Below are positions 1,443 through 37,351 of a stretch of 37,566 bases of DNA, one piece after another. The DNA lies in the NCBI GenBank assembly GCA_021324635.1, contig JAJPIS010000100.1, positions 1 to 37,566 of the forward strand, in the 5' to 3' direction. The notes beneath the pieces were generated by a model. It searched no databases. It was not told where the DNA came from and saw nothing but the letters and a program-made list of their open reading frames with translations. The position numbers and the translations under genes are program-made. Within the stretch, counting starts at the first letter, position 1, and each line of letters begins with the position of its first letter. This DNA is from Gemmatimonadota bacterium (GTDB lineage Bacteria; Gemmatimonadota; Gemmatimonadetes; Gemmatimonadales; Gemmatimonadaceae).

Positions 1443-1531
1443 TGCTCGCGGGGTCGAAGGCCGGTCGACGAGGGCTGGGGATCGGATGGGCCGGAATATA
1501 GCGCGCGCCATCCAGCCACGCGCCCGCAAAT

Positions 1532-1547
1532 TGTTTCACGTGGAACA
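1532..1547. promoter_or_regulatory. parS centromere site
   Basis: TGTTTCACGTGGAACA matches the widely conserved bacterial parS consensus TGTTTCACGTGAAACA at 15 of 16 positions. It lies about 90 bp upstream of parA, where origin-proximal parS sites are common. It would be the loading site for ParB. Only the match and its position are seen; binding is inferred. Confidence 0.9.
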
Positions 1548-1732
1548 TTGGTGCCCGCCGCCCGCGGGAAGTCGGCCCGCGGCCCGGTCCGGCGGCCGCA
1601 TTGCCACAACAATGCGCCACGATCCGCCCACCAACGCACCACAATACCGGCGTGCGCGCCGTAGGGGCGGCATTCATGCCGCCCGCGACCCGCATCCCGC
1701 ACCGATGGCGGGGCGGCCGCGTCCCGCGGACA

Positions 1733-1794
1733 CCAACGGAATGGGTTTGTTGGATGGTGTCAGGGGCAATCGCACAGCGATTGCCCCTGACACC
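1733..1794 (+). repeat. Long palindromic element, copy A
   Basis: Arms of 18 bp (1756-1773 and 1777-1794, starting GGTGTCAGGGGCAATCGC) pair perfectly around a 3-base ACA loop. The preceding 20-odd bases (CCAACGGAATGGGTTTGTTG) are conserved in the two other copies in this window, so the repeated unit is larger than the hairpin. No coding function is seen. It could be a MITE-like element or an RNA hairpin. Confidence 0.85.
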
Positions 1795-2193
1795 GGGCAC
1801 GGCAACGACGGGTGGGGCCATCGGCCGCCGCGGCACGCCGGCGTGCGGCCGTCGGGCACGGCAACGACGGGGTGGGGACACGATGCCGTCGCGGGCACGT
1901 GGCCGCGTTGGGGGGGGGTGGCGTGCGTGTCCCGGCGCACCCGGAACGGCAACAACGGGCGCGGGGTGACGGCGCCGTGGCCACGGGCGGGCGTGTGGAT
2001 GCCCCAACAACCAACGACGGGGGGGGCGCATCGTGACGTCCCGTAGGGGCGGCATTCATGCCGCCCGCGACTTGCATCCCGCACAGAAGCCGGGGCGGCA
2101 TTCATGCCGCCCGCGATTCACATCCGCACGGATGCCCGGCACCGGGAACGGCAAACGGCCGGCGGGATGACGGTGCCGTGGCGACGCGCGGGT

Positions 2194-2241
2194 GCGTGGG
2201 TGCGGATGCGTGGGTGCGGACGCGTGGGTGCGGACGCGTGG
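2194..2241 (+). repeat. 14-bp tandem repeat
   Basis: GCGTGGGTGCGGAT, then two copies of GCGTGGGTGCGGAC and a partial fourth unit run head to tail. It is noncoding and lies inside the REP array. Confidence 0.85.
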
Positions 2242-2301
2242 CGCGGCGAACGACGGGTGGGTGACGGTGCCCGGCGTGGGCGCATCGCAACGTGGTGTAC
2301 C

Positions 2302-2398
2302 GTAGGGGCGGCATTCATGCCGCCCGCGACCCGCATCTGCACGGATGCCCGGCCCGGCATTCATGCCCCCCGCGACGCGCATCCGCACGGATGCCCGG
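2302..2398 (+). repeat. Left 97-bp terminal inverted repeat of the RAYT cassette
   Basis: Two REP units in tandem. Unit one is the GGGCGGCATTCATGCCGCCC hairpin followed by CATCTGCACGGATG. Unit two is a slightly degenerate CGGCATTCATGCC core followed by CATCCGCACGGATGCCCGG. Its partner is 3081-3177. Confidence 0.85.
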
Positions 2399-2454
2399 GC
2401 GCCCCCACCCGCACGGACGCCCCGCCCGCCGACGCGGGTACGCCCGCCGGTGCC

Positions 2455-2961
2455 TCACATCGGCACGGATGCCTGGTCCCTCCCCCGATATGTGGCGTCG
2501 AGCCACCGTCGCGGGTTGTGCGCGATGTAGGTCCGGCAGCGGTTCCAGTCGCGTGCGTCGCGAATCACGCGGTCGTGATACCCGCGCTGCCACAGAGTCC
2601 CATTTCGGCGCCGGAGAACCGCGCTCACGCGTTTCGCGGAAAGCCCCTTGAACAGCCCCACCACGCGACCCAGAGGCAGCGGCGCACCCGTGTCCAACCG
2701 CAGGATCGCGTGCACATGGTCCGGCATCACGACCGATGCGTCCACGATCAGGGCAGGGATCCGCCGGGGCAACTCGGCCAGGGCATCCGCCACGATCCGC
2801 CCCGCGAGGGTGAGGGCGAGCGTCCCTGCTTCCACCCGCGCCAGTATCGGTGCCCGACCCCGCACGACCGTCGTGATCAAGTACGCGCCCGGCGCCCTGT
2901 AGTCGTGCCCGGGTCGTCGCAACGTCCGACGCCGGATGCGCCTCGGGAATGCCCTCGCCAT
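2455..2961 (-). CDS. REP-associated tyrosine transposase (RAYT, Y1/HUH superfamily)
   Basis: RAYTs are single-domain HUH nucleases related to IS200/IS605 TnpA that nick and process REP hairpins as single strands. The 168-residue length is typical. The metal-binding HUH motif is MPDHVHAIL (H82, H84). The family's C-terminal block LWQRGYHDRVIRDARDWNRCRTY leads into YIAHNPRRW, so Y128 and Y145 are the candidate catalytic tyrosines. The ATG at 2961 gives the usual family N-terminus; a longer upstream frame is only repeat sequence. The last residues (QASVPM and the TGA stop) are encoded by half of a REP hairpin. The gene sits inside inverted REP ends, the arrangement expected if it acts on the repeats of this window. 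Confidence 0.88.
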   Translation of the reverse strand: MARAFPRRIRRRTLRRPGHDYRAPGAYLITTVVRGRAPILARVEAGTLALTLAGRIVADALAELPRRIPALIVDASVVMPDHVHAILRLDTGAPLPLGRVVGLFKGLSAKRVSAVLRRRNGTLWQRGYHDRVIRDARDWNRCRTYIAHNPRRWLDATYRGRDQASVPM

Positions 2962-3080
2962 GGCTGACTCTTGCCGCGATGCGTCATCGCCCCGTCGCGG
3001 CGACGGTCCACGATGCGACGCAAACGCCTGCGCCCCCGGCGCCCCGGCGCCCCCGGCGGCCGCACATGTCCGGGGAGCGA

Positions 3081-3177
3081 CCGGGCATCCGTGCGGATGC
3101 GGGTCGCGGGCGGCATGAATGCCGGGCCGGGCATCCGTGCGGATGTGAGTCGCGGGCGGCATGAATGCCGCCCCTAC
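3081..3177 (-). repeat. Right 97-bp terminal inverted repeat of the RAYT cassette
   Basis: The reverse complement reads GTAGGGGCGGCATTCATGCC and onward, and aligns without gaps to 2302-2398. It ends 38 bp before the start of the methylase gene. Confidence 0.85.
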
Positions 3178-3215
3178 TACGACAACGGGCGCGCCGCGGT
3201 GCACCTTTGTGGGCG

Positions 3216-9278: not shown

Positions 9279-10555
9279 GCGAGCCCACCGCGTTCGTCCA
9301 CCTCGCGCTGGGCGGACGAACGACGCGCGTCGGCCGCCTGTGGACAACTGCCGCGAAGGGGCGCGAGACCGCCACGTTCGAATACGACCCCGAGTGGCTC
9401 CGCCACCCGGAGCGCTTCGCCCTCGAGCCGGCACTCGCACTGGGGCCGGGCCCCTTCCACACATCACTCGGTCGCGCCCTCTTCGGCGCCCTCGGTGACT
9501 CAGCGCCCGATCGGTGGGGCCGCACCCTCATGGCTCGGGCCGAGCGGCGGCGGGCCGCCGTGGAAGGGCGCCGGCCGCGTACCCTGCGCGAGAGCGACTA
9601 CCTCCTCGGCGTCTCTGACGTCGTCCGCCAGGGCGCACTCCGGTTCTCGACAACCCCCGACGGGCCGTTCCTCGCCGCGGACCCCCGCTGGAGCGTGCCG
9701 CCGCTCGTGGAGCTCCCGCGTCTGCTCGCGGCAAGCGGCCACGTCGAGGCCGACGACGAGACCGAGCCGGACATGCGACTTCTGCTGGCGCCCGGGTCCT
9801 CGCTCGGCGGTGCGCGGCCGAAGGCCTCCGTTCGTGACCGCGACGGCCATCTCCTAGTCGCGAAGTTCCCCTCGCGAACCGACGACATCGACGTCGTGCA
9901 ATGGGAGGCGGTCGCGCTGGGTCTCGCCGAGCGGGCCCGAATTCCCGTTCCGGCGTGGCGGGTCGAAGATGTGGCGGGTCAGCACGTCCTCCTCACGCGC
10001 CGCTTCGACCGTGTCTCCGCCGGAACGGGCGAGCTGATCCGCGTGCCGTTCCTCTCCGCTACGAGCATGCTCGGCGCCGCGGACGGCGAACTCCACAGCT
10101 ACCTGGAGATCGCCGACGCGCTCCGGCAGCATGGCGCCGCCACCGCGACCGACGTCCCCGCGCTGTGGCGTCGGATCGTCTTCAACATCCTCGTGTCGAA
10201 CACGGACGACCACCTCCGCAACCACGGCTTCCTCTACGGCGGTCAGGAGGGGTGGCGCCTCTCGCCCGCTTATGACCTCAATCCCGTCCCGACGGACGTG
10301 AAACCGCGCGTCCTGTCGACAGCCATCGGCCTCGACGAGGACGCGACGGCGTCGCTCGACCTCGCGCTCGAGACGGCGAGCGAGTTCGCGGTCGGCGCTC
10401 GCGAGGCCCGAGTTGTCGTGCACGAGGTGGGTGCCGTCGTGAGCAGGTGGCGTGAGGTGGCGGCCGGGCTCGGCCTCTCTGCGGCAGCATGTGACCGGAT
10501 GGTCTCGGCGTTCGAACACGAGGACCTCTCGGCGGCGCTCGCGGTCCGGCCGTGA
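9275..10555 (+). CDS. hipA: HipA-like serine/threonine kinase toxin
   Basis: HipA phosphorylates a tRNA synthetase and causes growth arrest. The 426-residue length is normal. Visible motifs in order are the Gly-rich loop GSSLGGARPKA (174-184), the ATP-lysine in VAKFPS (K197), the catalytic loop NTDDHLRNHGF (309-319) and the metal-binding PAYDLNP (D334). All catalytic positions look intact, so the kinase is probably active. The GTG start overlaps the hipB stop. The target cannot be predicted. Confidence 0.9.
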   Translation: MSEPTAFVHLALGGRTTRVGRLWTTAAKGRETATFEYDPEWLRHPERFALEPALALGPGPFHTSLGRALFGALGDSAPDRWGRTLMARAERRRAAVEGRRPRTLRESDYLLGVSDVVRQGALRFSTTPDGPFLAADPRWSVPPLVELPRLLAASGHVEADDETEPDMRLLLAPGSSLGGARPKASVRDRDGHLLVAKFPSRTDDIDVVQWEAVALGLAERARIPVPAWRVEDVAGQHVLLTRRFDRVSAGTGELIRVPFLSATSMLGAADGELHSYLEIADALRQHGAATATDVPALWRRIVFNILVSNTDDHLRNHGFLYGGQEGWRLSPAYDLNPVPTDVKPRVLSTAIGLDEDATASLDLALETASEFAVGAREARVVVHEVGAVVSRWREVAAGLGLSAAACDRMVSAFEHEDLSAALAVRP

Positions 10556-10682: not shown

Positions 10683-11084
10683 ATGGACCGCCTGATGGAT
10701 GTGTTGACGGCGATCTCGCACCCCACGCGCCGGGCGATCATCGCGCAACTGGCGGCCGGAGGGCCCACCCGGTTCCTCGACGTCGCCCGACGCTTCGATA
10801 CGGCGCTGAACGCGGTGACCAAGCACCTGAAGCTCCTCGAGCGGGCGGGCCTCATCGAGCGCGAGAGACGGGGACGCGAGGTGCTGATCTCGTTCCGCGC
10901 CGAACCGCTACGCGACGTCGCCGGTTGGGTGCACGGGTACGAGCGGTTCTGGAATACGCAGCTCGATGAGTTCGAGCAGTACTTCACGAACAAGAACGCG
11001 AAGCACGGGAAGCACGGGAAGCACGGGAAGCACGGGAAGCATGGGAAGGATGGGAAGCACGCGAGACGGGAGACGACGCGATGA
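10683..11084 (+). CDS. ArsR-family winged-helix repressor with KHG-repeat tail
   Basis: The N-terminal 90 residues are a winged helix: AISHPTRRAIIAQLA, then NAVTKHLKLLERAGLIERERRGRE. This subgroup commonly pairs with SRPBCC genes, as here, with an ATGA overlap to the next gene. Instead of ending normally, the protein continues into a tail of Lys-His-Gly triplets made by a 9-base tandem repeat (AAGCACGGG four times from 11001, then three variants). The His-rich tail could bind metal, but a slippage by-product is as likely. The ATG at 10683 is chosen from the promoter position; an ATG at 10671 abuts the operator and would add MFVG. Confidence 0.85.
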   Translation: MDRLMDVLTAISHPTRRAIIAQLAAGGPTRFLDVARRFDTALNAVTKHLKLLERAGLIERERRGREVLISFRAEPLRDVAGWVHGYERFWNTQLDEFEQYFTNKNAKHGKHGKHGKHGKHGKDGKHARRETTR

Positions 11085-11545: not shown

Positions 11546-11590
11546 ACCCATCGCCCCGAGCACACGGCGAACACCCGGTACCAGCCGCCA

Positions 11591-11660
11591 CCACCCGCCG
11601 CACCCGCCGCCACCCGCTACCACCCGCCACCACCCGCTACCACCCGCTACCACCCGCTCA
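11591..11660 (+). repeat. 10-bp minisatellite upstream of the hydrolase gene
   Basis: Seven 10-base units related to CACCCGCTAC run in register between the SRPBCC and hydrolase genes. CACCCGCTAC itself occurs three times and the others differ at one to three positions. The array ends 17 bases before the ATG at 11678, so copy-number change would alter the leader of the downstream operon. Confidence 0.85.
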
Positions 11661-21327: not shown

Positions 21328-21539
21328 AGACCCTCCGTTGATGCCGATGATGACCCGCGTCGCGCTACTCGACGCGGCCGACGTCGAAGCATGACGCCAG
21401 CGCCGGCGCGGGTACATCGGCCGTTCGGGGGAGGCCCCTCGTACCGGGCACCGCAACGACGGCGTGCACCCCGGTGCCGCAGCGGGCACGCGGCCACGTT
21501 GGCACCGGGAACGACACCCACGGGGCGCCGTGATCCCTC

Positions 21540-21900
21540 GTAGGGGCGGCATTCATGCCGCCCGCGATTCGCATCCCGCACCAATGCCGGGCGGCATTCA
21601 TGCCGCCCGCCGTTCGCATCCCACATGGATGCCGGCCGGCGTGGGATGCCGGCCGGGCGCGGTATTTCCCGCGCCGGGCGCCGTGTATCCCCAACCGCAA
21701 CGGCGAACGGCGTGAATGCCTGGCCCGGCATGTCACGCGGCGCGTGGCATCCCGCACCAATGCCGGGCGGCATGTCGCGCCGCCCGCGGGACGCCGGCCG
21801 GCCGGGCGTCGGTGCGAAATGCGGATCGCGGGCGGCATGAATACCGGGCCAGGCATCGGTGCGGGATGCGAATCGCGGGCGGCATGAATGCCGCCCCTAC
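21540..21900. mobile_element. Gene-less 361-bp element with RAYT-cassette-like inverted ends (possible MITE)
   Basis: It begins GTAGGGGCGG and ends CCGCCCCTAC. Each side carries about 97 bp built of two REP units (21540-21635 and 21802-21900) in inverted orientation, the same plan as the RAYT cassette at 2302-3177. The 165-bp interior has no gene. It is best read as a non-autonomous derivative that a RAYT could act on in trans; this is inference from architecture. Confidence 0.6.
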
Positions 21901-22150
21901 CGGGGGGCGACGGGACGCGGGCGGGGTGACGTGCCGAACGGCGGGCGGCGGGCGGCATGAATGGCGCCCCGGCATCGGTGTGGGATGCGCGTCGCGGGCG
22001 GCATGAATGCCGCCCCTACGCGCGGGGGCGCGCGGCGCGGGCGGCGGGACATGGCGAACGGCGGGCGGCATGAATGCCGACCGTACGGGTACACGCCCGG
22101 CGACGTGCGCGGACGGCGGCCCCGACATCGCGTCCGTCGTTGCTGTTTCC

Positions 22151-22214
22151 GGTACCAGGGGCAATCGCGTCGCGATTGCCCCTGGTACCATCCAAAAAAT
22201 CCCGTTCCTTTGGT
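22151..22214 (-). repeat. Long palindromic element, copy B (inverted orientation)
   Basis: Arms of 18 bp at 22151-22168 (GGTACCAGGGGCAATCGC) and 22172-22189 pair perfectly around a GTC loop. Relative to copies A and C, two bases of one arm differ and are matched by complementary changes in the other. The flank (22190-22214, read in reverse as ACCAAAGGAACGGGATTTTT) matches the leader of the other copies. Confidence 0.85.
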
Positions 22215-22345
22215 GGCCGCGGGACGCGGACGGGGCGACATGCCGCCCGGCATCGGTGCGGGATGCGAGTCGCGGGCGGCGCGACATGCCGCCCGGCATC
22301 GGTGCGAAATGCGAGTCGCGGGCGGCATGAATGCCGCCCCTACAC

Positions 22346-22367
22346 GGGGCGGCCTGGCGGCCGCCCC
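22346..22367 (-). terminator. Palindrome fused to the TonB receptor stop codon
   Basis: GGGGCGGCC-TGGC-GGCCGCCCC forms a nine-bp stem. Read in the direction of the gene, the stop is TAG and its G is the first base of the hairpin. An identical arrangement follows the sigma-54 regulator gene at 37102. There is no T-run, so intrinsic termination is not certain; an mRNA 3'-end block is another reading. Confidence 0.6.
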
Positions 22368-24574
22368 TATGGGATGTCGTACTGCACCGTCGCGTACACC
22401 GTGGCCGGCTGGCCGGGCGTGATGAAGTAGCCGGACTCCAGCTCGCGATACTGCGTGTCGAGGACGTTGCGGACGCCGATCTCGAGCCGTGCCCCCTGGC
22501 CGATGCGGACGCTGCCGCTCGCGTTGACGAGCGCGAACGCCGGGCGGGTGAGCCCGATCGCCTCCTCGAACGGGGTGTACTTGCCATTGAAGTTGGTGTC
22601 GAGGCGGAGTCGCCAGATCGCGTGCGGCGGCGCGAGATCGATCGCCGCATCGCCGACGAACCGCGACGTATTGAAGACCGTCTGCCCCGAGTAGTCGATT
22701 CCGTTGCCGGCGTCGACGAACCGCGTGTACTTCGCGTCGAGCACCGTGACATTGGTGGAGAGCACGACCGCCGGGGACGCGGTCAGCCGCCCCGTCACGT
22801 CGACCCCGCGGCGCCGGCTCGGGCCGCCGCTGATCGTCGTCACGCCGTTGAATACCTGCTCGTTGCTCAGATCCATGCGGAAGGCGGCGGCGTCGAGCGA
22901 TAGCCGCCCACGAGCGATCTTGACCCCGGCCTCGTAATCCCAGACCGTGATGAACGGCACCCTGGGATCGAAAATGACCCCGTCAGCCTGGCGGAAGCCG
23001 CGGGAGACGTTGGCGTAGACGCCGAGCCAGGGGAGCGCGCGCACGAGCAGCCCCGTCTTCGGGGAGAAGATGCCCTTGCTGTGCTGGAGACTCACCGTCG
23101 GCCCGAGCACGTAGAACGGGGCAGCCGGCGAGCTGTCGATCGACGACGGAACGCGCGCCGCGCTCGAGAGCTGGTCGACCCGCGCGCCGAGATCGACGCG
23201 CACGAACGGCGTCGCGTCGAACGAGGACTCGACGAACAGCCCGCCCGACCCCTGATGCGCGTGCACCAGCCCGAAGGGGATCGAGTCCTGCCGGAACGCG
23301 CTCGCGCGCTCCCCCCAGTTCTCGTAGTGCGAGTGGTCGTACCGCGCCTCGCCGCCGAAGGTGACGTGCAGGTGCGACGTCGCGTATGTGAGCGCGCTCG
23401 TCGCGCCGCCGCCATACCGGCCGTCGTACTCCCGGGTCTCGACGCCGCTCCCCTCGCGCAGCCCACCCAGTCCGGGCGGCGTGCTGAGCCAAAAGTTCCA
23501 GGTTCCCTGGGTCGAGAAGAGCGTCGTTCGCCACTCGAGGTCGGGCGACAGCATCACGCGGAGACTCGCGCGCTCCTGCGCACGCCGCTTGAACCCGCCG
23601 TCCCCGAGGTTCGACACGACGTTGTATCGCCTGCTGAGGTACGAGAGCGTGTCGAGGAATCCGGGGGAGTTGTACGTCGTCGCGTACAGCTCCGTCCCGA
23701 CGTCCAGCGTCGTCCGCCGCGAGAGATCGTGCACGAAGCGGCCGTGAACCTGTCCGACCTGGTTCTCGTCGTGCGGCCGCCAGCCGTCGTCGTGTGTACC
23801 ACGAATCCCGAGCACGCCGCTCGTGCCGCCGTGGTCGAAGCCGGTCAGCACCGACCCCAGGTAGCGCCCGAAGTTGCCTGCCTGGAGCTCGGCCCGGGTG
23901 CCCTGGACGCGCTCGACCGTGCGCACGTTCACCACGCCGGAGAACGCGAAGTTCCCGAACAGGGGGCTGGTCGGCCCCTTGATCACGTCGATCCCGCTCA
24001 CCGCCTCCGGGAAGATGAGGCTGAAATCGTTGTAGCCTTCCGCGTGCCCGTTCACGGGCTCGTTGATCGGGACGCCGTCGATCCAGAGTGCAATGTCGGT
24101 CGAGTGGTCGGAGCTGAATCCGCGGATCGACAGGTCCGACGCGAACCCCGGCCCCTGCCCCTGCTCGTGCACTTCCACGCCGGCGGTCTCGCGCAGTAGC
24201 TCCCACGGCGAGTTGGCCGGCGTCTGCGCGATGATGCTCGGCGTCACTCGCACGACGTCGATCGGCTCCGACGGATGCACGGGCGTGGTGGTGATCGTGA
24301 TCGCGCCCAGATGGGCGAGGTGGGCACCGGTGCGGGCGATCGAGTCCGCCCGCGCGGCCAGCACCCGCGCGCGGACGCTGTCGGCGTGGGCGCGGCCAGG
24401 CGGCTGCGGGATGTGACCGGTGACCGTATCCGCGTACGCGGCGGCCGCGGCGCTGTCGGCGGCGGTGGTCACGCCCTGGGCGGTGTCGGTCGGGGCCTGC
24501 GCGGCCACTCGCCGCACCGGAAGTACTGCCAGGAGCGCCAGCGTGGCGACGCCGCCGATCCGACGACGTGTCAT
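22367..24574 (-). CDS. TonB-dependent outer-membrane receptor
   Basis: The 735-residue receptor starts at ATG 24574 with a signal peptide (MTRRRIGGVATLALLAVLP, cleaved after VAAQ). A plug domain follows: ITITTTPVHP, SIIAQTPANSPWELLRETAG, LSIRGFSSDHSTDIALWIDG, then SGVVNVRTVERV. The rest alternates beta strands typical of a 22-strand barrel and ends with an aromatic-containing strand (ATVQYDIP). Upstream is a His/Cys-rich exported protein on the same strand, which hints at metal or metallophore uptake, but the ligand cannot be assigned. The longer upstream frame is only a 9-base tandem repeat. The TAG stop is shared with a repeat hairpin. Confidence 0.9.
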   Translation of the reverse strand: MTRRRIGGVATLALLAVLPVRRVAAQAPTDTAQGVTTAADSAAAAAYADTVTGHIPQPPGRAHADSVRARVLAARADSIARTGAHLAHLGAITITTTPVHPSEPIDVVRVTPSIIAQTPANSPWELLRETAGVEVHEQGQGPGFASDLSIRGFSSDHSTDIALWIDGVPINEPVNGHAEGYNDFSLIFPEAVSGIDVIKGPTSPLFGNFAFSGVVNVRTVERVQGTRAELQAGNFGRYLGSVLTGFDHGGTSGVLGIRGTHDDGWRPHDENQVGQVHGRFVHDLSRRTTLDVGTELYATTYNSPGFLDTLSYLSRRYNVVSNLGDGGFKRRAQERASLRVMLSPDLEWRTTLFSTQGTWNFWLSTPPGLGGLREGSGVETREYDGRYGGGATSALTYATSHLHVTFGGEARYDHSHYENWGERASAFRQDSIPFGLVHAHQGSGGLFVESSFDATPFVRVDLGARVDQLSSAARVPSSIDSSPAAPFYVLGPTVSLQHSKGIFSPKTGLLVRALPWLGVYANVSRGFRQADGVIFDPRVPFITVWDYEAGVKIARGRLSLDAAAFRMDLSNEQVFNGVTTISGGPSRRRGVDVTGRLTASPAVVLSTNVTVLDAKYTRFVDAGNGIDYSGQTVFNTSRFVGDAAIDLAPPHAIWRLRLDTNFNGKYTPFEEAIGLTRPAFALVNASGSVRIGQGARLEIGVRNVLDTQYRELESGYFITPGQPATVYATVQYDIP

Positions 24575-24580
24575 CCCGCG

Positions 24581-24607
24581 TGGCTCGCGTGGCTCGCGTG
24601 GCTCGCG
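24581..24607 (-). repeat. 9-bp tandem repeat in the TonB receptor leader
   Basis: Three perfect copies of TGGCTCGCG with a degenerate fourth lie immediately upstream of the receptor ATG. Copy-number change would alter leader length. Confidence 0.8.
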
Positions 24608-24725
24608 TACCTCGGGCGGACGCTGGTCGAGCGGGTGATCGGATGGGTGCGCCGGCCGGCCCAGGGCTCGGCGCGCGCGCACGTGTGGCATGAACACAGT
24701 CGATGGTCTCCGCACGGGGAGGTGC

Positions 24726-24773
24726 GGCCCGGGCGGGAATGCCCGGGCCGATCGCGGTGCGCGGACGCGCACC
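24726..24773 (-). repeat. Paired stem-loops between the His/Cys-rich and TonB receptor genes
   Basis: GGCCCGGGC-GGGAAT-GCCCGGGCC (24726-24749) and GGTGCGC-GGAC-GCGCACC (24756-24773) are both perfect. On the minus strand the second is preceded by TAGGGGC, so the pair looks like a diverged member of the REP family. It could also act as a terminator or attenuator after the His/Cys-rich gene. Confidence 0.6.
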
Positions 24774-27391: not shown

Positions 27392-27417
27392 GGTGCCGAT
27401 CCGGTACAGGGTTGCAG

Positions 27418-27505
27418 TCGTCGTCGTCGTCGTCGTAGGGGCGGCATTCATGCCGCCCGCTGGCATTCCGTGCCGATCCCGGGCCGGCATCATGCCGCCC
27501 GCTGG
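27418..27505 (+). repeat. Trinucleotide run and REP hairpins upstream of the hydrolase gene
   Basis: A run of six GTC triplets (27418-27435) joins directly to a REP hairpin (27435-27460) and a decayed second copy (about 27483-27505). They lie between two divergent genes and would be within the leader of the hydrolase gene. The remaining 130 bases up to the padR promoter show nothing further. Confidence 0.8.
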
Positions 27506-34950: not shown

Positions 34951-35699
34951 TCTGGTCGCGACGCTCCGCCGGCCGGGAGGCGCCCGAGGGGGCGGTCGGC
35001 GTGGGGCCGGCCGCCGCACCGCTCGCGGTGAGCGGACCCCTCATCGCGCTCCACAACCTCGAGCGGTTCTACGAGGCCGGGGGACAGCGCACGTACGTGC
35101 TGCGGAACATCACGCTCGAGATCGCGTCCGGCGACTTCGTGTCGATCATGGGACCATCGGGCGCCGGCAAGTCGACGCTCCTCAACGTGCTCGGGATGCT
35201 CGACAGCGGCTGGAGCGGAGAGTACCAGCTCGCCGGCCAGCCGGTGCACGCGCTGTCGCACAAGGCCCGCATCGCGCTCGGCCGTCGCCACATCGGGTTC
35301 GTCTTCCAGCAGTATCATCTGCTCGATGACCTCACGGTCGCCGAGAACCTCGACGTCCCGCTGTCGTACCGCGACGTGCCCAAGTCGGAGCGCCAGGCGC
35401 TTGTCGCCGACGCGCTCGACCGCTTCGGGATCGTCGGGAAGAAGGATCTCTACCCGCGCCAGCTCTCGGGTGGCCAGCAGCAGCTCGTCGGCATCGCCCG
35501 CGCCGTGATCGCGCGGCCGGCGGTGATCCTCGCCGACGAGCCGACCGGGAACCTCCACTCGAGCCAGGGGCGTGAGATCATGGCGCTCTTCCGCGAGCTC
35601 AACGCCAGCGGTACGACGATCGTCCAGGTCACGCACTCGGAGGAGAACGCCGCCGCGGGTAAGCGGGTCGTCGAGCTGCGCGACGGCTGGATGACATGA
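34947..35699 (+). CDS. Second ABC transporter ATPase (MacB/LolD type)
   Basis: The 250-residue ATPase has Walker [11 protein letters not shown]-loop [10 protein letters not shown], signature [15 protein letters not shown], Walker [14 protein letters not shown] and H-loop QVTHSEENA. It resembles the other ATPase of the cluster, but the residue after the signature differs (QQQL for QQQR) and the D-loop is NLHSSQ rather than NLDSQN. These could lower activity in a homodimer and suit a heterodimer. The GTG start overlaps the permease remnant. The stop overlaps the response-regulator start (ATGA). Confidence 0.92.
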
Positions 35700-37102
35700 T
35701 CACCGCCGGTCCGATGCCCGATACTGTTGCGACCACATCGACTGTCCGCCTGCCGCGGGTCCTCGTCGCCGACGATCAGCCGGACATCCTCGAGGCCGTG
35801 CAACTGCTGCTCAAGGGCGAGGGATACGAGGTCGAGACGGCGCTGTCACCGTCCGGGATCCTCCTCGCCGTCCAGCGTCACGACTTCGACGCGGCCCTGA
35901 TCGATCTCAACTATGCCCGGGATACGACCTCGGGCGCCGAAGGGCTCGACCTGCTCGGGCGGATCCGGGCGGTCGATCCGACGCTCCCCGTCTCGGTCAT
36001 GACCGCGTGGGGCAGCGTCGACGGCGCGGTCGAGGCGATGCGGCGCGGCGCCTATGACTACGTGGAGAAGCCGTGGGACAACGCGCGGCTGCTGCTCATG
36101 GTCCGGCGCCAGGTGGAGATGGGTCGCGCGCTGCGCGCCGGCCGGCAGCTCCAGACCGAGATCGAGACCCTGCGGGGCACGGCGGGGCGGCCGCTGTTGA
36201 TCGCGGAGTCGCCGCGGATGCGGCCCGTGCTCGACCTCATGGCCCGGATCGCGCCGTCCGACGCCAACGTCCTCATCACCGGTGAGCACGGCACCGGGAA
36301 GGAGCTCGTCGCGCAGTGGCTCCATGCCGCGTCGGCGCGCGCGACCAAGCCGTTCACCGCCGTCAACCTGGGCGGGCTCTCGGAGGGGCTCTTCGAGAGC
36401 GAGTTGTTCGGTCACGTCCGGGGTGCCTTCACGGATGCCAAGACGGACCGGGCCGGCCGGTTCGAGCTCGCTGACGGCGGGTCGCTCTTCCTCGACGAGA
36501 TCGCCAACATCTCGCTCTCGCAGCAGGCGAAGCTCCTCCGTGTGCTTCAGACGCGCGAGGTGGAGCGGGTGGGATCATCCCGCACCAAGCGGGTCGACGT
36601 CCGCATCCTCGCCGCGACCAACGCCGATCTGCGCGAGGAGGTGAGCGCCGGGCGGTTCCGTGAGGACCTGCTCTTTCGGATCAACACGATCGAGATCCCG
36701 CTTCCGGCGCTCCGCGATCGCCGGGAGGACATCCTGCCGCTCGCGCGTCATTTCCTCGACCGCCATGCCCAGCGCTACGGGCGGCGCGGGCTGACGCTGG
36801 ACGCGGGGGCCGCGCAGGCGCTGCTCACGCACAGCTGGCCGGGGAACGTGCGGGAGCTGGACCACGCCGTCGAGCGCGGCGTCCTGCTCGCGCAGGGGAC
36901 GAGCGTTCGCGCGGGTGACCTCGGACTCCGTCCGCCGGGCCCGCCGGCCCGGCTCGAGGACCTGACGCTCGCCGAGGCCGAGCGGGCGATCATCGAGCGC
37001 GCGCTCGCCCGGTTCGGCGGCAACGTGAGTCAGGCCGCCCGGGCGCTGGGCCTCAGTCGCAGCGCCCTCTATCGCCGCCTCGAGAGCAACGGGCAGGTGT
37101 AG
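35696..37102 (+). CDS. NtrC-type sigma-54-dependent response regulator
   Basis: A receiver (acidic pocket D26/D27, phospho-acceptor D70, T103, K125) precedes a sigma-54 AAA+ domain. The AAA+ domain has Walker A GEHGTGKE (196-203), GAFTDA contact loop (243-248), Walker B SLFLDE (263-268) and arginine finger FREDLLFRIN. A Fis-type HTH ends the protein (GGNVSQAARALGLSRSALYRR). All 468 residues are typical. It is coupled to the second ATPase by ATGA, so it may regulate this operon, possibly with a kinase encoded outside the window. The stop codon TAG is supplied by a repeat element. Confidence 0.94.
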   Translation: MITAGPMPDTVATTSTVRLPRVLVADDQPDILEAVQLLLKGEGYEVETALSPSGILLAVQRHDFDAALIDLNYARDTTSGAEGLDLLGRIRAVDPTLPVSVMTAWGSVDGAVEAMRRGAYDYVEKPWDNARLLLMVRRQVEMGRALRAGRQLQTEIETLRGTAGRPLLIAESPRMRPVLDLMARIAPSDANVLITGEHGTGKELVAQWLHAASARATKPFTAVNLGGLSEGLFESELFGHVRGAFTDAKTDRAGRFELADGGSLFLDEIANISLSQQAKLLRVLQTREVERVGSSRTKRVDVRILAATNADLREEVSAGRFREDLLFRINTIEIPLPALRDRREDILPLARHFLDRHAQRYGRRGLTLDAGAAQALLTHSWPGNVRELDHAVERGVLLAQGTSVRAGDLGLRPPGPPARLEDLTLAEAERAIIERALARFGGNVSQAARALGLSRSALYRRLESNGQV

Positions 37103-37123
37103 GGGCGGCCGCCAGGCCGCCCC
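37102..37123 (+). terminator. Palindrome fused to the sigma-54 regulator stop codon
   Basis: GGGGCGGCC-GCCA-GGCCGCCCC, 22 bases, begins with the G of the TAG stop. It is identical in sequence and placement to the hairpin at the TonB receptor stop (22346-22367, read on the minus strand). A full REP hairpin follows within a few bases in both places. Confidence 0.6.
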
Positions 37124-37284
37124 GCGGTAGGGGCGGCATTCATGCCGCCCGCCGTTCGCATCCCGCCCCGATGCCGGGACGGCCGCGTCCCGCGGCCCCG
37201 GTGTAGGGGCGGCATTCATGCCGCCCGCGATTCGCATCTGCACCGATGCCTGGCCCCGCATTTCGCGCGGGTCCCGCGTCCCGC

Positions 37285-37351
37285 GGCCACCAATGGAACG
37301 GGTTTGTTGGATGGTGTCAGGGGCAATCGCGACGCGATTGCCCCTGACACC
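37285..37351 (+). repeat. Long palindromic element, copy C
   Basis: Arms of 18 bp at 37313-37330 and 37334-37351 pair around a GAC loop, with the same conserved leader (ATGGAACGGGTTTGTTGGAT) as copy A. Confidence 0.85.

Follow-up and report, generated by a model that had tools for sequence, protein, structure and literature searches.

The receptor gene and its stop codon

The window, by which we mean the whole stretch of 37,566 nucleotides that was analysed, corresponds to C75, one of the 127 contigs that make up a 4.09-Mb genome. On its minus strand, a TonB-dependent receptor gene meets an array of REP copies at its stop codon. The features at this gene end are as follows:

22367..24772, minus strand: TonB-dependent receptor gene, 801 codons, stop TAG at 22369-22367
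22346..22369, minus strand: hairpin A, TAGGGGCGGCC-GCCA-GGCCGCCCC, whose own TAG is the receptor stop codon
22320..22343, minus strand: REP B behind hairpin A, GTAG-headed, GTAGGGGCGGCATTCATGCCGCCC
21536..22366, no strand given: array of REPs separating the receptor gene from a trypsin/PDZ gene, adjoining the receptor stop
22019-21996, minus strand: further exact REP B in the array
21900-21877, minus strand: further exact REP B in the array
21540-21563, plus strand: further exact REP B in the array

The receptor protein matches the Pfam families TonB_dep_Rec_b-barrel (3.9e-27) and Plug (2.3e-19), and its start is placed at 24697 by our self-written gene caller, versus 24772 for the open reading frame. 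Read along the minus strand, the gene end runs ...GACATCCCA TAG GGGCGGCC GCCA GGCCGCCCC GT GTAG GGGCGGCATTCATGCCGCCC. The TAG at 22369-22367 is thus directly visible as the head of hairpin A, as the sequence-only reading had proposed in stating that a repeat hairpin supplies the receptor stop. That reading also placed a GTAG REP at once after the hairpin; the REP is present, but a spacer of 2 nt separates the two. Hairpin A possesses a 9-bp stem and a 4-nt loop (GCCA), the first paired base being the G of the stop TAG, and its folding energy of -23.8 kcal/mol is equalled by none of 200 shuffles. The stems of hairpin A and REP B, 9 bp (z -4.6) and 8 bp (z -4.1), respectively, form palindromes within the 20-40 nt range of GTAG-type REPs. 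The receptor copy of hairpin A is headed by ATAG, not GTAG, with the last G of the head paired, and the REP B behind it is headed by GTAG.

The same arrangement exists at a second gene of the window, in which the coding end GTG TAG of a response regulator lies on hairpin A and is followed by REP B:

35696..37102, plus strand: sigma-54 response regulator gene, stop TAG 37100-37102 being the head of hairpin A
37100..37123, plus strand: hairpin A, second copy of the window
37127..37150, plus strand: REP B after the second hairpin A

A second repeat family, a 39-nt near-perfect palindrome with the core GGGGCAATCGC..GCGATTGCCCC, occurs in three copies, all inside REP arrays:

1756-1794: 39-nt palindrome
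22151-22189: 39-nt palindrome
37313-37351: 39-nt palindrome

Window positions 10992-11063 and 11572-11657 hold short tandem repeats (9 and 10 nt).

Repeat heads and stop codons across the genome

The sample comprises the window and 60 further stretches, 49 surrounding listed repeat sites and 11 from elsewhere, and is biased towards repeats. Heads were compared with stops in 58 stretches, amounting to 870,356 bases, with genes called by a self-trained model and not by standard annotation. In the window, the TAGGGGCGGC head is seen 14 times, compared with 0.07 expected. A survey of stops within the repeat had been suggested as a check, and its outcome bears out the overlap: of the 136 intact TAGGGGCGGC heads in the 870-kb sample, 12 form the exact stop of a called same-strand gene, versus none at 1-20 nt behind such a stop. 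The other distances behind a stop are 21-60 nt (14 heads), 61-200 nt (23) and further (30), and for the remaining 57 heads the nearest upstream neighbour is not a same-strand gene. No head falls within a same-strand called gene (0/136), and a single one falls within a gene on either strand (1/136). One frame of three makes the head a stop; all 12 overlapping genes use that frame, and no gene reading through the head in the other two frames was found in this sample. Eleven of the 12 genes have a Pfam match, the exception being a 193-aa gene on C48. The excess of heads exactly on stops is not chance. With up to two mismatches, REP B has 236 copies in the genome, being high-copy and extragenic like GTAG-type REPs.

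G precedes TAG in 134 of the 136 heads. Both G-less heads (ATAG) are gene stops (2/12 versus 0/124, p = 0.007), a confinement that is expected if coding use holds the TAG. Two further candidates were set aside. The open reading frame at 699-1664 on the plus strand, which ends on a REP TAG, is spurious and uncounted, with no Pfam match and an overlap with the opposite-strand gene at 3-1442. A surplus of G before TAA (37/45) was dropped as a sign of decayed GTAG heads, most of these being common gene ends like AAG TAA or CAG TAA.

Two side observations concern the surroundings of the heads. At C92:1630 (plus strand) and C92:2180 (minus strand), rhomboid and HbpS-like genes form a convergent pair, and the intervening repeat array touches both stop codons. 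Furthermore, TCG runs directly ahead of REP heads give rise to serine tails, nine serines in a BadF ATPase and six in an AI-2E transporter; such runs are situated at C55:20147 (L073 near 10116-10149), C123:27055, C72:4008 and window 27416-27436. TCGTCG lies ahead of 6 of the 136 heads, versus 15 of 1248 other CGTAG sites.

Hairpin A and REP B differ in their positions relative to genes. Hairpin A has 18 copies in the sample, usually with a REP B head after it, either intact or decayed. Eleven of these 18 copies lie close to the end of a same-strand gene, compared with 8 of 67 for REP B copies that come first in their array (p = 5e-5). Four of the 11 gene-end copies supply the stop, and seven, with broken heads, are located 1-21 nt after a separate stop. 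Of the seven remaining copies, four lie away from gene ends and retain an intact TAG head.

The transposase unit

Near the other end of the window lies a transposase gene between inverted repeats:

2455..2961, minus strand: gene for a RAYT-like Y1 transposase (168 aa, start ATG at 2961)
2302..3177, no strand given: transposase unit with 105-nt inverted repeats at 2302-2406 and 3073-3177

The Y1_Tnp match at window 2518-2739 is the sole one found in the genome (26.8 bits, cut-off 23), and the NCBIfam RAYT model NF047646, whose cut-off is 80, gives 77.4 bits. Matches to solved transposases are weak. An HVH and the Y of RTYIAHNP are visible by eye in the translation; they may represent the HUH motif and the catalytic tyrosine, and cleavage activity is putative. 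The 105-nt inverted repeats are 93% complementary and hold REP-like subunits, and each opens with the REP head (GTAGGGGCGGCATTC / GTAGGGGCGGC), as do the flanks of a REPtron. The stretch with the transposase spans about 1.77 kb here, whereas the corresponding DNA of G002, the syntenic congener, measures about 0.17 kb. This single RAYT-like transposase is likely the mobiliser of the REP population.

The G002 spacer opposite window 1449-3215, at about 199290-199460 of its contig C37, contains TGTTCCACGTGGAACA, which in our view resembles a parS site; the window contains no exact copy of TGTTCCACGTGGAACA.

Orthologous gene ends in repeat-free relatives

No copy of REP B, allowing two mismatches, exists in the 40 related genomes searched, two of which are congeners. 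The receptor and response regulator genes belong to a block syntenic with G002. In both congeners the receptor ends in YDIF TTC TAG, compared with YDIP CCA TAG here; the stop is at the same codon, the change is limited to the last residue (F to P), and the DNA after the stop is unrelated. The final residue in wider relatives is also T, P, L, M, D or K, and the F to P change is therefore not strong evidence of harm. For the sequence-only reading, two findings together were to count against the hairpin forming the gene end: repeat-free orthologues ending at the same residue before unrelated DNA, and no genome-wide excess of such stops. The first is what the receptor displays, and the second is contradicted by the excess described above.

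The orthologue comparison includes 7 of the 12 genes. The genes at C53:138, C123:27055, C92:1630 and C48:60763 have no match in the relatives' sequence examined, and the Vps10/BNR gene (C9) was excluded, its best orthologue being only about 43% identical. In the case of the response regulator, G002 has NGQ TGA versus NGQV TAG here (+1 codon), and no close orthologue was found in G001. In the case of the S9 peptidase, both congeners have ENMP TGA versus ENMPPAS TAG here (+3). The S15 peptidase, the C24 phosphodiesterase, the BadF ATPase and the lipid A acyltransferase all have TAG in the congeners. Here the S15 peptidase is two codons longer, the BadF ATPase gains ten residues including the nine serines ahead of its TAG, and the acyltransferase has a longer S/P-rich tail. 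The C24 phosphodiesterase has low-complexity tails, which make its orthologue length uncertain: its tail is two residues shorter than in G002 by alignment, yet longer when counted from the conserved MSRY. Six of the seven genes with an element end at a displaced position, compared with 14 of 34 control pairs of orthologues (p = 0.045), so the C-terminal ends are not wholly untouched. As far as these alignments indicate, the seven genes exhibit no convincing truncation and mostly small extensions.

Origin of the stop overlap

We consider it probable that the feature is a GTAG-type REP pair, hairpin A and then REP B, which landed so that its head TAG is the receptor stop, and that such overlaps persist through tolerance and selection. 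Hairpin A and REP B would belong to a lineage-specific REP population, and one such element would have landed at the receptor 3' end with its head TAG coinciding with the stop codon. The release factor would read the head TAG as a stop, with the stem starting on the last base of the TAG, and the protein body would not be cut back, the last residue alone differing from the congeners. An in-frame TAG head would leave the element flush with the gene and without a readthrough tail, so that the insertion could be tolerated, and the TAG would afterwards be kept by selection as the stop. We infer mobilisation by the RAYT and a filtering role of selection, and the flush hairpin may also slow termination or protect the mRNA 3' end. 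Several observations weigh against this explanation. The ATAG head at the receptor makes that copy a degenerate element by strict head sequence, and the RAYT score of 77.4 is below the NCBIfam cut-off of 80. In addition, seven of the 18 copies of hairpin A sit next to a stop that they do not provide, genes with an element have displaced stops more often than control pairs (6/7 versus 14/34), and ancestral TAG (5/7) is no different from that of element-free TAG genes (4/9).

Instead, stop codons reading TAG (or containing CT) might be the preferred landing sites of the element, the TAG then being the host's own. The congener stop is already TAG in five of the seven genes, compared with 61 of 194 in a G002 background sample (p = 0.035), and occupies the same codon in the receptor; moreover, intact heads cluster at exactly 0 nt, and hairpin A lies near same-strand gene ends far more often than REP B (11/18 versus 8/67). 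However, TAG is retained in four of nine TAG genes that lack an element (p = 0.36 against 5/7), which makes the ancestral-TAG signal weak. The congener has TGA in two genes, with stops shifted by +1 and +3 codons. Furthermore, G precedes TAG in all but two heads, whereas congener stops have C, G or A before them, and the in vitro RAYT work, in its sections used here, treats GTAG as a part of the element that guides cleavage and not as the target (PMC8266576). Such targeting appears unlikely. The earlier suggestion of insertion at a TAG or similar coding end does fit the receptor, for which the repeat-free congeners have TAG at the same codon. The TAG may have been the target or may have come with the element, the congener stop being TGA for two of the seven genes.

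Stop capture, in which the element landed just past the native stop and the head TAG took over as a backup once that stop was lost, is also a possibility of small weight. The change from NGQ TGA to NGQV TAG in the response regulator, that from ENMP TGA to ENMPPAS TAG in the S9 peptidase, and the nine-serine extension ahead of the BadF stop are all of the expected kind. However, many intact heads would then be located 1-20 nt behind native stops, where none of the 136 is seen, and the receptor has no extension.

It is very improbable that hairpin A represents an intrinsic transcription terminator of the usual kind, unrelated to REPs. The same 22-nt hairpin sequence does occur outside this genome, once in each of 20 stretches from other genomes, and T runs follow several of these copies. 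Here, however, the bases after hairpin A are GTGTAGGGGCGG, with no T run; the hairpin recurs 18 times in the sample, mostly with a REP B head behind it; and none was found in the 392 kb of congener G002 searched. A hairpin A family common to other genomes was ruled out as well, with a TAG head in 0 of the 20 stretches. Lastly, truncation of a longer native C-terminus by insertion inside the coding region, which the sequence-only reading offered as replacement of the C-terminus, can hardly be right: the sole hint, itself not convincing, is the C24 phosphodiesterase tail aligned two residues short of G002, which is longer when counted from MSRY, and the repeat-free orthologues contradict it, with an unchanged receptor length (F to P only) and +1, +2, +3, +10 or variable low-complexity tails elsewhere.

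We also mention, as a rather doubtful idea, that the REP population lands on TAG stops as a safe harbour, in which a transposase-placed head would restore the stop in register and so rebuild the invaded gene end, and that hairpin A would be a subtype adapted to gene ends.

Comparison with known systems

A literature search on REPs of the host lineage found nothing, and the comparison is with REPs of other bacteria, in each case from parts of the cited reports. In E. coli, REPs nearer than 16 nt to a stop are associated with lowered translation (work cited in PMC12306157). The E. coli REPs within 15 nt of a stop and the present elements both place a hairpin near the stop; however, the REP there follows the stop (PMC12306157), whereas the present elements contain the stop codon, with its G taking part in the pairing.

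In REPtron or RAYT (TnpAREP) units, a Y1 transposase gene is situated between inverted GTAG-headed REPs, as in the present window (PMC2817692, PMC8266576), and in vitro the GTAG of such elements guides cleavage at a flanking CT or CA (PMC8266576). Compared with the REPtron sections of these reports, the RAYT score here is just below the NCBIfam cut-off, the flanks are 105 nt long with REP-like subunits, and cleavage by the enzyme is putative.

The closest likeness is to the GTAG REPs of Di Nocera, De Gregorio and Rocco (2013), short palindromes with an unpaired GTAG at one end, which are located mostly near gene 3' ends, form dimers or clusters, and often give the TAG stop to flanking ORFs through their termini (PMC3733652, in the sections examined). 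The elements here share this placement and grouping, but they form a different sequence family in a high-G+C lineage, and their stop overlap has been counted and compared with repeat-free congeners; the sections of PMC3733652 examined contain no orthologue comparison at such stops. Because stop-supplying GTAG REPs are already stated in those sections, the receptor overlap is a new case of a known REP habit, now with comparative evidence. A one-line remark in the literature thereby becomes a counted, comparable case, with a REP population in 1 of 41 related genomes searched. The congeners display the repeat-free state, the protein is almost unaltered by the overlap, and stop-codon targeting can be clearly tested against later selection.
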